Of a stretch of DNA of 64,000 nucleotides, positions 38,307 through 63,290 are shown piece after piece. The stretch is taken from positions 124,001 to 188,000 of the forward strand of contig NZ_NEVT01000008.1 in the NCBI RefSeq assembly GCF_002261345.1, given 5' to 3'. Origin of the DNA: Bordetella genomosp. 2 (lineage in GTDB: Bacteria > Pseudomonadota > Gammaproteobacteria > Burkholderiales > Burkholderiaceae_B). The translations under genes and the position numbers were made by a program. Positions within the stretch are counted from its first letter, which is position 1, and every line of letters starts with the position of its first letter. The notes under the pieces were generated by a model that saw only the letters and a program-made list of their open reading frames with translations, was not told the origin of the DNA and made no database searches.

Positions 38307-38340
38307 GCGGAAAACGCCCGGAACCGGCTGGATTTTCCGC
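38307..38340 (-). promoter_or_regulatory. Expression-platform hairpin below the glycine riboswitch
   Basis: GCGGAAAA (38307-38314) and TTTTCCGC (38333-38340) pair around an inner CCGG/CCGG stem, right after aptamer 2 on the minus strand. It may switch between termination and read-through, or mask translation of gcvT further on. Confidence 0.45.
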
Positions 38341-38341
38341 C

Positions 38342-38580
38342 CCTCTGTCCTTTTGCCTGAGAGTTGCCCCGCACCAGCGGGTTTGCACCTTCGGCGCCTG
38401 GGCTGCGCGCATGCCGATGGCCGCGGCGCCAGGTCTCTCCAGAGTGCTGTTTCGGCCATGCAGGCCCGGCACGGCCGGGCGGGATGGCTGATGCAGCGCG
38501 GTATGGGTTACCTGAGCGATTCCGGGCGAATTGCGCCTTCGGCGGCAGCCATGTAACAAATGGCCGCTCTCTCCCGCGAC
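38342..38580 (-). ncRNA. Tandem glycine riboswitch
   Basis: Read on the minus strand, two aptamers stand in series. Aptamer 1 (about 38580-38490) shows GGGAGAGAG, GCCGAAGGCGCAA and CTCAGGTAACC; aptamer 2 (about 38445-38342) shows GGAGAGACC, CGCCGAAGGTGCAAACCCG, CAACTCTCAGGCAAAAGG and ACAGAGG. These conserved blocks are the glycine riboswitch hallmarks. It precedes gcvT by about 90 bases and should switch the glycine cleavage operon on when glycine is high. It fills most of the 510-bp gap between gcvT and napF. Confidence 0.95.
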
Positions 38581-38662
38581 ATGCGTGACAGCGCGTGAAG
38601 CATACATCGAAAGCCAGCCGCGGAAAAGTTCGCGCTGTCAGGCCGCTGGCCCGGCCGGCAGC

Positions 38663-59786: not shown

Positions 59787-59805
59787 ACCCACGAGGAGCT
59801 TGCGC

Positions 59806-61347
59806 ATGAAACCCATAGAACGCCATGCGATCGACACGCCCGACCGCATCGCCTATTGCATGATCCCTTCCGGCTATGCGGTGACCTGGGCCGAACTGGA
59901 ACGCCGCAGCCGCAAGTGCGCGGCCGCGCTGCTGGCGGCCGGCCTGAAGACGGGCGATTCGATCGCCGTATTCCTGGAGAATCATCCCTACTACTTCGAG
60001 ATCCTCTGCGCCGCGCACCGCATCGGCCTGTACTACGTGACCGTCAGCCGGCACCTAAAGCGCGAGGAGGTGCAGTACATCGTGGACGACTCCGACGCGA
60101 AAGTGCTGTTCTGCTCGCGCCACACTCTGCAGGAAGTGTCGGTGGAGGCTTGCCACGCGCGCGGCACCACCTGCGTCATCATGGACGATGTCCTGGAGGG
60201 TTTCGAGTCCTACGATGACTGGACCGGCGGGCACGCCGACGACGTCCGCCTGCCCGACACGCCCGAAGGCACAGATTTCTGCTATTCGTCGGGCACCACG
60301 GGCGTGCCCAAGGGCATCAAGCGGCCGCTGGAGACCGCCAACCGCTTCTTCCGCGCCGACGAATCCGAGCGCAGCGCGTGGAAGGCGTTCGACCGCGACA
60401 CGGTGTATTTGTCGACCGCGCCGTTCTATCACACCGCGCCGGTGCGCTGGAACATGGCCGTGCTGCGCGGCGGCGGGCGCTGCGTCATGATGGAGAAGTT
60501 CGATCCCGAGCAGGCCCTGCGCGCCATCCAGGACCACCGCGTCACGCATTCGCAATGGGTGCCGACGATGTTCATCCGCATGCTGCGCCTGCCCGACGCG
60601 CAGCGCGCCCGCTACGACCTGTCGAGCCTGCGCTACGCGGTGCACGCCGCGGCGCCGTGCCCGGTCGAAGTCAAGGAGGCCATGATCGCCTGGTGGGGAC
60701 CGATCCTGTACGAGTACTACAGCGGCACCGAGCTGGTGGGCCGCACCTCGCTCAGTTCGCAGGAATGGCTGCGGCACAAGGGCTCGGTGGGCATACCGGA
60801 GTTCGGCCGCGTGCATATCGTGGGCGACGACGGCAACGAGCTGGGGCCGCGCCAGCCGGGGGTGATCTATTTTTCCGGCGGCGGCAGCTTCCAGTATCAC
60901 AACGACCCGGAGAAGACGCGCAATGCCTATAACAAGCGGGGCTGGGCGACCTACGGCGATGTGGGATACGTGGACGAGGACGGCTATGTGTACCTGACGG
61001 ACCGGCTGTCCAACACGATTGTGTCCGGCGGCGTGAACATCTACCCCCAGGAAGCGGAGAACCGCCTGTCCCTGCACCCGGCCGTGCGCGACGTGGCCGT
61101 GATCGGCGTGCCCAACCAGGAGTTCGGCGAGGAGGTCAAGGCGGTGGTGCAGCTGGTCGATCCCGACGCGGCCAGCGATGCGCTGGCCGCCGAACTGATC
61201 GCCTTCTGCCGGGAGCATATCTCGCACGTCAAATGCCCGCGCAGCGTCGACTTCGTGACCGACATGCCGCGCACGGAATCGGGCAAGCTGCTCAAGCGCC
61301 TGGTCAAGCAGCGCTACTGGCCGGACAACATGGGGATTGCCCATTAG
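59806..61347 (+). CDS. AMP-forming acyl-CoA synthetase
   Basis: A 513-residue adenylate-forming ligase: P-loop Y-S-S-G-T-T-G-V-P-K-G near residue 163, Y-E-Y-Y-S-G-T-E near 303, G-W-A-T-Y-G-D-V-G-Y near 380, and the C-terminal catalytic lysine in P-R-T-E-S-G-K-L-L-K near 492. It activates the carboxylate with CoA, ATP giving AMP. ATG 59806 with GAGGAG upstream was chosen over the TTG at 59800. It is the last gene before the 785-bp repeat region. Confidence 0.94.
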   Translation: MKPIERHAIDTPDRIAYCMIPSGYAVTWAELERRSRKCAAALLAAGLKTGDSIAVFLENHPYYFEILCAAHRIGLYYVTVSRHLKREEVQYIVDDSDAKVLFCSRHTLQEVSVEACHARGTTCVIMDDVLEGFESYDDWTGGHADDVRLPDTPEGTDFCYSSGTTGVPKGIKRPLETANRFFRADESERSAWKAFDRDTVYLSTAPFYHTAPVRWNMAVLRGGGRCVMMEKFDPEQALRAIQDHRVTHSQWVPTMFIRMLRLPDAQRARYDLSSLRYAVHAAAPCPVEVKEAMIAWWGPILYEYYSGTELVGRTSLSSQEWLRHKGSVGIPEFGRVHIVGDDGNELGPRQPGVIYFSGGGSFQYHNDPEKTRNAYNKRGWATYGDVGYVDEDGYVYLTDRLSNTIVSGGVNIYPQEAENRLSLHPAVRDVAVIGVPNQEFGEEVKAVVQLVDPDAASDALAAELIAFCREHISHVKCPRSVDFVTDMPRTESGKLLKRLVKQRYWPDNMGIAH

Positions 61348-61429
61348 TGCCAGGGAGGCTTTGTCCGTGGGCAAGAGGGAGGATGGGATGGGGGGTGTTG
61401 TGGGGTGCAGGGCCGTGGGTGCCTGGGGC

Positions 61430-61559
61430 GTCCTGGGCGGGGCTGGGGGGCGGGCCGGCCACGTCGCTCGGCTCGGGCGCGCCACCAGGCGCCCTCGGCC
61501 CCCTGCGGGGGCTACCCTCGCTCCAACTGGCCGGCCCGCCCCCCAGCCCCGCCCAGGAC
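61430..61559 (+). repeat. 130-bp stem-core element, copy 1
   Basis: Arms 61430-61461 and 61528-61559 are perfect 32-nt inverted repeats and enclose a 66-nt core (61462-61527). The core itself has smaller hairpins, for example GGGCGC/GCGCCC and CCCC/GGGG. The same core recurs inverted at 61962-62027 with only three changes. The whole element stands 82 bp after the acyl-CoA synthetase stop. It does not encode a credible protein. Confidence 0.9.
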
Positions 61560-61598
61560 TCGCGACAGCGACATGCGCCGGTCCGACAACGCCGTCGA

Positions 61599-61864
61599 TG
61601 AACGTGGCGGCGCGACCGTGGCACGACGGTGTCAGACACCCCTGGCGCACCATCCTGCTTGTGCAGGCCATGTGCGCGGGGTGTCTGACACCTGCAGCGA
61701 GGACCGCCCGTGAACGTGGCGGTGCGACCGTGGCACGACGCTGTCAGACACCCCTGGCGCACCGTCTTGCTTGTGCAGGCCGTGTGCGAGGGGTGTCTGA
61801 CACCTGCAGCAAGGACCGCCCGCGAATATGGCGACGCGACTGGGGCACGACGGTGTCAGACACC
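61599..61864 (+). repeat. 112-bp tandem repeat, 2.4 copies, of 65-nt hairpins
   Basis: Units at 61599-61710 and 61711-61822 (about seven differences) and a partial third to 61864. Each full unit holds a long hairpin, 61628-61692 and 61740-61804, whose outer 15-nt arms begin with the palindrome GGTGTCNGACACC, then GCGCAC/GTGCGC and CCTGC/GCAGG around a TTGT loop. A last palindrome stands alone at 61852-61864. Palindrome starts alternate by 52, 60, 52 and 60 bp. Confidence 0.92.
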
Positions 61865-61929
61865 TATGCATCGACATATGCATCACGCCCGGTGCAAGGC
61901 ATCGGGAGTTCCAACTGGAGATATTGCGA

Positions 61930-62059
61930 GCCCGGGCCTGCCGGCGGGGCCGGGGCGACCAGTTGGAGGGAGGGGAGCCCCCGTAGGGGGCCGAGGGCGC
62001 CTGGTGGCGCGCCCGAGCCGAGCGACGTGGCCGCCGCGGCCCCGCCGGCAGGCCCGGGC
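61930..62059 (-). repeat. 130-bp stem-core element, copy 2 (inverted)
   Basis: Arms 61930-61961 and 62028-62059 pair at 30 of 32 positions around a 66-nt core (61962-62027), whose reverse complement matches copy 1 at 63 of 66. The arms match copy 1 arms at only 20 of 32 positions, yet at 11 of the 12 changed positions both sides changed so that pairing is kept. It starts exactly 500 bp from copy 1 and ends 73 bp before the next gene. Outside these elements and the tandem repeat I see nothing else in 61348-62132. Confidence 0.9.
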
Positions 62060-62132
62060 GCCTCAAGAACCCAACCTCCCAACGCCCCGAAGCAATCATC
62101 GACACCCATCAACGCAACCCTGAGGAACCCCC

Positions 62133-63290
62133 ATGGCGAACATCCAGGCCGGCCCGCGCCGGCGGCAAGGTTTTAGCGCGGAACACGACGAGTTCCGCAG
62201 GACCATCGCGCGCTTCATCCAGGACGAGGTGAGCCCCTTCCACGCGCAATGGGAAGCCGACGGGCACGTCCCCCGCGACCTGTGGCGCAAGGCGGGCCGG
62301 GTCGGCATGCTGCTCACCAACATCCCCGACGAATACGGCGGCGCCGGCGGCGACTTTCTCTATACCGTGGTAGTGCTGGAAGAGATCGCCCGCTCGCTGT
62401 CGAGCGGCATCACCGGCTTCACCACGCACTCGGACATCGTCGCCCCGTACCTGCTCAACTTCGGCACCGAGGCCCAGAAACACGCCTCCCTGCCGGGCAT
62501 GGCGCAAGGCGACATCGTCGGCGCCGTCGCCATGACCGAACCGGGCGCCGGCAGCGACCTGAAAGCCATCCGCACCACGGCGCAGAAAACCGCCCACGGC
62601 TACCTGGTCAACGGCCAGAAGACCTTCATTACCAACGGCCTGCATGCCGATCGCGTGATGGTGGTGGCCAAGACCGACCCGGCCGCGGGCGCGCGCGGCA
62701 TCAGCCTGTTCTGGGTCGACACGGCCACGCCCGGATTCAAGCGCGGCCGCCTGCTGGACAAGGTCGGGCAAAAGGCGCAGGACACTTGCGAACTGTTCTT
62801 CCAGGACATGGAAGTGCCGGCCGACACGCTGCTGGGCGAGCCCGGCCAGGGATTCGGCTACCTGATGAAAGAACTGGTCCGGGAACGCCTGATGATCGCC
62901 GTGCGCTGCGCCGCGGCGCTGGAGGCCGCGCTGGACTGGACTATCGACTATACCAAGGAGCGGCGCGCCTTCGACAAGGCGCTGATCGACAACCAGCATA
63001 TCCGCTTCAAGCTGGCCGACATCAAGGCCCTGGCCGCCGCCACCCGCGCCTTCGTGGACGACTGCATCGGGCGCTACATGGCCGGCGAGCTGGATGCCGC
63101 CGGCGCGGCCATGGCGAAGCTCTGGGCGACCGAAGCCACGCGCGCCATCGACGACCTGATGCAGTTCTACGGCGGCTACGGCTACATGCGCGAATACCCC
63201 ATCGGGCGGGCCTATACCGACGTGCGCCCCAACCGCATCTACGGCGGGTCCTCGGAGATCATGCGCGAACTCATCGCGCGATCCCTGTAG
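62133..63290 (+). CDS. Acyl-CoA dehydrogenase (long-chain/isovaleryl-like subgroup)
   Basis: A 385-residue FAD enzyme: V-A-M-T-E-P-G-A-G-S-D-L near residue 130, K-T-F-I-T-N-G near 163, Q-F-Y-G-G-Y-G-Y-M near 345. The C-terminal loop reads I-Y-G-G-S-S-E-I-M, with glycine where many family members keep the catalytic glutamate; the long-chain and isovaleryl enzymes share this and use a base elsewhere. It follows the repeat region, and a thiolase-like gene comes 35 bp after, so it belongs to the plus-strand catabolic set. Confidence 0.92.
   Translation: MANIQAGPRRRQGFSAEHDEFRRTIARFIQDEVSPFHAQWEADGHVPRDLWRKAGRVGMLLTNIPDEYGGAGGDFLYTVVVLEEIARSLSSGITGFTTHSDIVAPYLLNFGTEAQKHASLPGMAQGDIVGAVAMTEPGAGSDLKAIRTTAQKTAHGYLVNGQKTFITNGLHADRVMVVAKTDPAAGARGISLFWVDTATPGFKRGRLLDKVGQKAQDTCELFFQDMEVPADTLLGEPGQGFGYLMKELVRERLMIAVRCAAALEAALDWTIDYTKERRAFDKALIDNQHIRFKLADIKALAAATRAFVDDCIGRYMAGELDAAGAAMAKLWATEATRAIDDLMQFYGGYGYMREYPIGRAYTDVRPNRIYGGSSEIMRELIARSL

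Follow-up and report, generated by a model that had tools for sequence, protein, structure and literature searches.

A dispersed inverted-pair repeat of Bordetella whose hairpin ends covary in their stems

The known systems closest to the element reported here are repeats that lie between genes and can fold. In Bordetella, two sources describe the Bor or Bor-1 repeats as intergenic, present in many copies and predicted to form a conserved stem-loop, with a Bor-1 model of 117 bp in B. bronchiseptica (196 copies, 92 of them complete) and of 93 bp in B. pertussis (128 copies, 78 complete) (PMC1590033, PMC2267715). Two papers further present ERIC as acting at the RNA level (PMC2267715) and Correia elements as binding RNase III (PMC2649163). 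Here we describe an element of about 658 bp, located at about positions 61416–62073 of a 64,000-nucleotide stretch of Bordetella genomosp. 2 (assembly GCF_002261345.1, contig NZ_NEVT01000008.1, positions 124,001–188,000; hereafter the window), in which two 130-nt hairpins, inverted relative to each other, form the ends of a single unit. It shares with Bor-1 that it is an intergenic structured repeat in Bordetella, a comparison made by description only, and by that description the present family may be the published Bor-1 repeat; however, the accessible Bor-1 text describes neither paired A and B ends nor covarying arms, unlike the present element. The composite element was not found in print in the open-access literature.

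Like the NEMIS/Correia and ERIC miniature inverted-repeat transposable elements (MITEs), the element is short and intergenic, with inverted ends and hairpins able to sit in transcripts. Unlike in NEMIS and ERIC, each of its ends is a full T-shaped hairpin, the stem sequence not being the same at both. The terminal repeats of parvoviruses are T-shaped and of similar size, and their core flips between the arms; the present element differs in being chromosomal and in flipping rarely, and no relationship is claimed. The reading that we favour, with about even confidence, is that of a dispersed, MITE-like element, apparently non-coding, that occurs in Bordetella and a small number of its relatives, whose stems are repaired by template switching and in which selection sees the single strand that reads outward.

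The left terminal inverted repeat (A end, 61416–61563, + strand) comprises the outer flank TGGGTGCCTGGGGC, a hairpin and the first inner bases. It is identical at 118 of 148 positions to the inverted right terminal repeat (B end, 61926–62073, − strand), whose outer flank ends in GCCTCAAGAACCCA, and this similarity exceeds the limits given in a preliminary description of the two hairpins. The A-type T-shaped hairpin (61430–61559, +) has its outer stem arm at 61430–61461 and its inner arm at 61528–61559 (both +). Between them lies a conserved 66-nt core (61462–61527, +) that reads CACGTCG...CTCCAAC on the + strand. Two small hairpins were placed within this core by means of an alignment described below (A3), GGGCGC...GCGCCC at 61475–61494 and GGCCCC...GGGGCT at 61497–61513 (both +). 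The B-type hairpin (61930–62059, −) is inverted relative to the A end and has its core at 61962–62027 (−). An inner region (61592–61864, +) holds two 112-bp tandem units (91% alike) and a partial third, with inverted doublets of the repetitive extragenic palindrome (REP) GGTGTC(A/T)GACACC. The first letters of the element are TG and the last are CA, a start and end common among transposon ends. Several overlapping frames run across its repeats, the longest of 279 aa with a TTG start, as read from the frame list. The hairpins are far more stable than shuffled sequences on all four strands (z −6.2 to −9.4), and in each case none of 200 shuffles reached the native stability.

The counts that had drawn attention to the two hairpins were recovered on recomputation: the cores agree at 63 of 66 positions once the right one is inverted, each arm agrees with its counterpart in the other copy at 20 of 32, and the arms pair within the copies at 32 of 32 and 30 of 32 positions. 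The two misses in the right copy are C.C and G.T, so that one of them could wobble, as had been proposed. Eleven differing arm positions did change on both sides, as stated earlier, but out of 13 pair positions rather than 12, the other two having changed on one side only. The preliminary description was right that the hairpins are real; it did not recognize that both belong to a single composite element, as its ends, and that this element has A and B end types, outer flanks that are conserved and REPs in its interior.

The recurrence of these hairpins is not chance. A core search of the own genome gave 33 matches at E ≤ 0.001. Of these, 30 span the whole core with an identity of at least 96%, one has an identity of 82% and two are partial. 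The 30 cores form 11 inverted pairs and eight singles, and in all 11 pairs a core on the + strand is followed by one on the − strand, 185–469 bp away. Two arm families were recognized, A (GTCC...GGAC) and B (GCC...GGC, once GCTC...GAGC), and every pair combines the two. That identical A and B arm types recur at these 11 loci of the own genome and, likewise, at three loci in genome G007 indicates that the pair was copied as a unit. One of the eight singles lies at a contig end, and three have a damaged partner end (C1:154660, C6:423443 and C3:22582), consistent with loss of a palindrome by deletion. In another genome (L119, G003) just one hairpin remains, and on its right, at the partner's expected place, stands a plain long-armed hairpin without the core, which looks like a case of core loss. 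One own-genome contig starts inside a hairpin copy (G000:C8:26-95; L004, L067), where the element probably broke the assembly. The core at G000:C8:47877-47946 (L061) is the one just 82% like the query; it resembles the type of other Bordetella genomes and may be of an older lineage or acquired. For Bordetella genomics, this describes a group of intergenic repeats, and one contig of the own genome ends in such a copy.

Searching 61 genomes with the 66-nt core by BLAST gave matches in ten: the own genome, seven of the eight others of the genus and two of the 28 that represent further genera in the family. None was found in 24 genomes from other families of the order. A covariance model of the hairpin (R1), which covers the inner 14 stem pairs only, matches the A hairpin at 61444–61545 (102.6 bits) and the B hairpin at 61944–62045 (−, 89.9 bits). 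It found the hairpin in nine of nine Bordetella genomes, with between at least 7 and at least 43 matches per genome and, under stricter filters across the family, in 17 of 268 genomes and five of 43 genera, one genus by single weak matches only. Among other loci examined there were 17 further +/− pairs, 16 in Bordetella and one in G014. Twenty loci of another genus (g56), chosen partly for visible pairs, comprised 15 +/− pairs (one with a weak left hit), one −/− pair and four singles. Core spacing puts the element length at about 370–700 bp. A pattern search that fits just a shorter core variant, and is not a survey, gave two matches in Bordetella petrii MY10.

Covariation in this hairpin family is real. 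In an unbiased test, 47 loci were retrieved by core sequence alone and two at contig ends were set aside; in 44 of the remaining 45 the stem scored higher than any of the 270 control positions, and only in L037 (22 of 28 paired) did it not. Core matches lacking complementary arms, the result named beforehand as contrary to a maintained stem, were thus almost absent from a search blind to structure. Across 146 hairpins, mostly found by R1 and with the register picked for best pairing, an arm pairs at 96% of positions with its own partner vs 44% with the arm of another copy. In comparisons between copies (60 sampled), cores are on average 79% and arms 43% identical, so the pattern of conserved core and covarying stem suggested by two copies extends to the family. 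Pairing reaches beyond R1, with 1969 of 2044 cells paired at stem positions 15–28 and 1956 of 2044 at positions 1–14. In an alignment fitted to the model (A4; 111 matches, 109 distinct), 98.2% of cells pair, vs 70.9% when shuffled and at most 50.8% when slid, and each of the four helices, the two small core hairpins among them, has changes on both sides. In alignment A3 (21 sequences, aligned with MAFFT) 94.4% pair, vs 77.4% in shuffles and at most 53.4% when slid; here the first small core hairpin is invariant and the second has three pairs changed on both sides. The stem is 29–33 bp long in 115 of 145 hairpins, its length being kept while its sequence is free. The flanks are alike between many copies, inward as (T)G(C/T)GAG and outward as G(T/C)CTCAAGAAC(T/C)CA at many B ends and in a GCCCTACGAA-like form at many A ends.

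Compensatory change in a stem is usually taken as proof of RNA function, and arm conversion can inflate tests of covariation, a warning that this family illustrates. Thirteen orthologous hairpins, that is, flank-matched sites of related species, were compared. In these, 30 pair positions differ on both arms and still pair, 15 changed on one side, and one changed on both sides with pairing lost. The comparison L104/L156 (three both-sided, seven one-sided, five gaps) was excluded for its poor alignment and doubtful orthology; including it would give 33 both-sided and 22 one-sided changes. Of the 30 double changes, 16 are of transversion type and 14 of transition type, and since transversions cannot pass through G-U, most double changes needed no G-U intermediate. 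Moreover, the core is inverted between the orthologues L183 (G135) and L191 (G136), whose arms and flanks are unchanged (flanks about 93% identical); their alignment scores 215.5 as they stand and 335 with the core turned. At L177 (G146) the core is also reversed relative to its own flanks. A motif survey of the 146 hairpins gave three reversed-core candidates, of which two stand; the third (L145) has the normal flank order on reading. Double changes with many transversions, together with a flipped core, point to template switching between the arms, and the earlier suggestion that the arms convert each other thereby receives direct support. We regard template switching as a well-supported cause of the likeness between the arms: one arm serves as template for the other, with an occasional flip of the core. 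Homogenized arms and inverted spacers are published marks of template switching (PMC8604942, PMC8794818).

The same observations could be read as showing that stem pairing is a mutational by-product, produced by template-switch homogenization with no function attached, while the core persists through recent amplification. This account is possible but doubtful. The double changes with many transversions and the core inversion fit it, as does the published mechanism (PMC8794818, PMC8604942). Yet the motif survey recognizes a core reversed against the flanks in just two of 146 hairpins, though flips are clearly possible, and cores are 79% alike across copies of several genera where arms are 43% alike. 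The mismatches left in the stems speak against it as well: homogenization alone would make G.T and A.C equally common, and they occur 15:70.

These mismatches were scored on the strand that has CACGTCG at its 5' end, so that A.C there is G-U on the opposite, outward-reading strand. Among 108 distinct copies there were 12 G.T vs 52 A.C (p 4.6e-7 if the copies were independent, which related copies are not), and 12 vs 48 after identical contexts had been merged. With g56 added, 141 copies gave 3948 cells, of which 3805 were Watson-Crick, 15 G.T, 70 A.C and 58 other; this set drops the left hairpin of L190, which has fewer than 22 of 28 positions paired. The bias toward G-U on the outward strand appears in Bordetella (50:10) and in g56 (18:3), at left ends (18:1), right ends (21:5) and singles (31:9), and in the inner (31:4) and outer (39:11) halves of the stem. 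As left and right ends show the same bias on opposite chromosome strands, it is not a replication-strand effect. It also persists with the outward strand either antisense (9:0) or sense (16:6) to the tandem neighbours. A bias of 70:15 points to a single-stranded form, probably RNA, and selection on the outward single strand is, from these alignments, moderately supported.

Several observations weigh against selection of that strand. The window's own right copy carries G.T rather than A.C, and the second hairpin of the core has an almost invariant G-U pair (104 of 109) on the strand that does not read outward. Two of 13 genomes oppose the bias, with very few cases each (G018 0:1, G136 1:2). Outward-strand G-U accounts for just 70 of 3948 stem cells (1.8%), which is few for a conserved RNA stem. 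The bias could be mutational, through C-to-T change on the transcribed strand, although outward transcription would still be implied. After correction for base composition, predicted RNA stability does not distinguish the strands. A strand preference by folding energy was accordingly discarded: in 126 of 145 hairpins stability favours the outward strand, but shuffled cores (40 sampled) give the same offset.

The preliminary description had left the maintained stem as either RNA or a DNA cruciform. The strand-biased mismatches give indirect support to the first, whereas a double-stranded cruciform alone does not predict them. An element of DNA architecture, that is, a cruciform or a binding site for a protein such as gyrase or a nucleoid protein, comparable to the bacterial interspersed mosaic elements (BIMEs), is in our estimate quite unlikely. 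Strict Watson-Crick pairing (3805 of 3948 cells) and placement between genes agree with such an element, and BIMEs too are inverted paired units. However, a double-stranded cruciform has no preferred strand and leaves the 70:15 bias unexplained, and a stem of free sequence would limit a sequence-specific binder to the core and flanks.

Gene context was examined at 83 loci (28 pairs and 55 singles), with orientations assigned by a simple gene caller based on codon usage. The neighbouring genes are tandem at 44 loci, convergent at 22 and divergent at 15, and two loci are undetermined. The window's own gaps of at least 60 bp (n = 23) are 19 tandem, one convergent and three divergent, too few for a firm base rate. 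That the hairpins serve as bidirectional transcription terminators between genes seems very improbable. They are very stable, they lie near gene ends, and the 22 convergent loci would suit that role. Against it, 15 of the 83 loci are divergent, and the flanks, as read, show no T run after the stem, being mostly G(T/C)CTCAAGAAC or GCCCTACGAAG outward and CTC(A/G)CA-like inward. For singles flanked by tandem genes, the outward strand runs in the gene sense in 22 of 27 cases, some of which are orthologous to each other. The A end is upstream in 12 of 16 tandem pairs (a hand count that leaves out G014), a weak tendency that we did not use.

The element shares two features with MITEs, namely terminal inverted repeats and dispersed copies that are present or absent at given sites. 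The gap occupied by the L181 element in G146 lacks it in G002, whose own element sits in the next gap, where G146 has none; of the L182 element (G135), G136 retains a deletion remnant instead of an empty site, and G146 nothing. Mobility at present is doubtful. Eight positions with both flanks are shared between Bordetella species, which makes the family old. No target-site duplication was seen by eye, and no clean empty site was found (G135/G136/G146 and G002, where the flanks are too diverged). No transposase was identified, the Y1 family alone having been searched. These points stand against a mobile element. Another possible but doubtful account is that of a purely cis-acting RNA element, an mRNA stabilizer or processing site, inherited vertically, whose pairs and singles are not products of transposition. 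The strand-biased mismatches, the single orientation in 22 of 27 tandem-context singles and the eight flank-matched positions are in keeping with this account. The shared A and B arm types at 11 own-genome and three G007 loci nevertheless need whole-pair copying, and the reciprocal presence and absence in neighbouring gaps also speaks against this account. Further points against it are that at several of the shared positions the hairpins themselves look unrelated, and that the bias is the same in hairpins antisense to tandem genes.

Under the favoured reading of a MITE-like element, each end carries a T-shaped hairpin of about 130 nt, with a stem of about 30 bp and free sequence and a conserved core of about 66 nt bearing two small hairpins. 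Stem pairing would be restored when one arm is copied from the other, the core sometimes being flipped. The selected form would be the single strand reading outward from the inside of the element, most likely as RNA hairpins, to judge by the mismatch bias. Such hairpins may lie in read-through or element-borne transcripts and act on mRNA processing or stability as NEMIS and ERIC are reported to do. Amplification would presumably depend on a transposase supplied in trans. The element resembles a MITE with structured ends; that it functions as NEMIS/ERIC do is at most inferred.

A bolder and rather unlikely extension is that the ends of a mobile element are recognized by shape, through a measured stem of about 30 bp and a directional conserved tip read single-stranded outward, while the stem drifts and template switching repairs it. 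If so, A and B ends would keep separate stem lineages. We know of no inverted-repeat elements with shape-based end recognition. In this family, stems are repaired by template switching, and the mismatches that remain are strand-biased, which that process by itself would not predict. Two causes of covariation can therefore be separated quantitatively within one family, and it lends itself naturally to testing how stem pairing is kept up.

The inner region of the element relates to a different system. Inverted paired palindromic units, and Y1-type REPs inside the element, are likenesses to REPINs and BIMEs with their REP-associated tyrosine transposase (RAYT). The present case differs in that GGTGTC(A/T)GACACC is a separate nested repeat and the hairpin units are not the REPs of the Y1 gene. 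The own genome has 354 such palindromes, 44 of them within 6440 bp of inner region at 20 loci (taking 400 bp beside each single), and two of its 11 pairs are without them inside. REPs thus accumulate inside the element and are nested in it, not its ends. One Y1 (IS200-like) gene was found, flanked by GGTGTC(A/T)GACACC in seven doublet units, and from these REPs we infer that it is a RAYT. It was considered as the direct mover of the hairpins and rejected: the gene is surrounded by the small REP palindrome, which explains the inner repeats and not the ends, and the 130-nt hairpin was not seen in the 3.3 kb around it. A direct repeat of 172 bp (99%) lies on either side of the Y1 gene (L068 1098-1269 and 2155-2326; G000:C8 about 91865-93093). 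It takes in the 3' end of the upstream gene and suggests a duplication around the Y1 locus.

In the window, the element lies between two genes on the + strand, mentioned as context only: upstream an AMP-binding (acyl-CoA synthetase-like) gene at 59800–61347 (PF00501, PF13193), and downstream an acyl-CoA dehydrogenase gene at 62133–63290 (PF00441, PF02771, PF02770). A search of Rfam gave no match for the hairpin element; the 11 hits at E ≤ 10 within 61340–62140 are all well under gathering scores. The only Rfam matches of the window are tandem glycine riboswitch aptamers (RF00504) at 38335–38586 on the − strand, with 56.8 and 51.7 bits.
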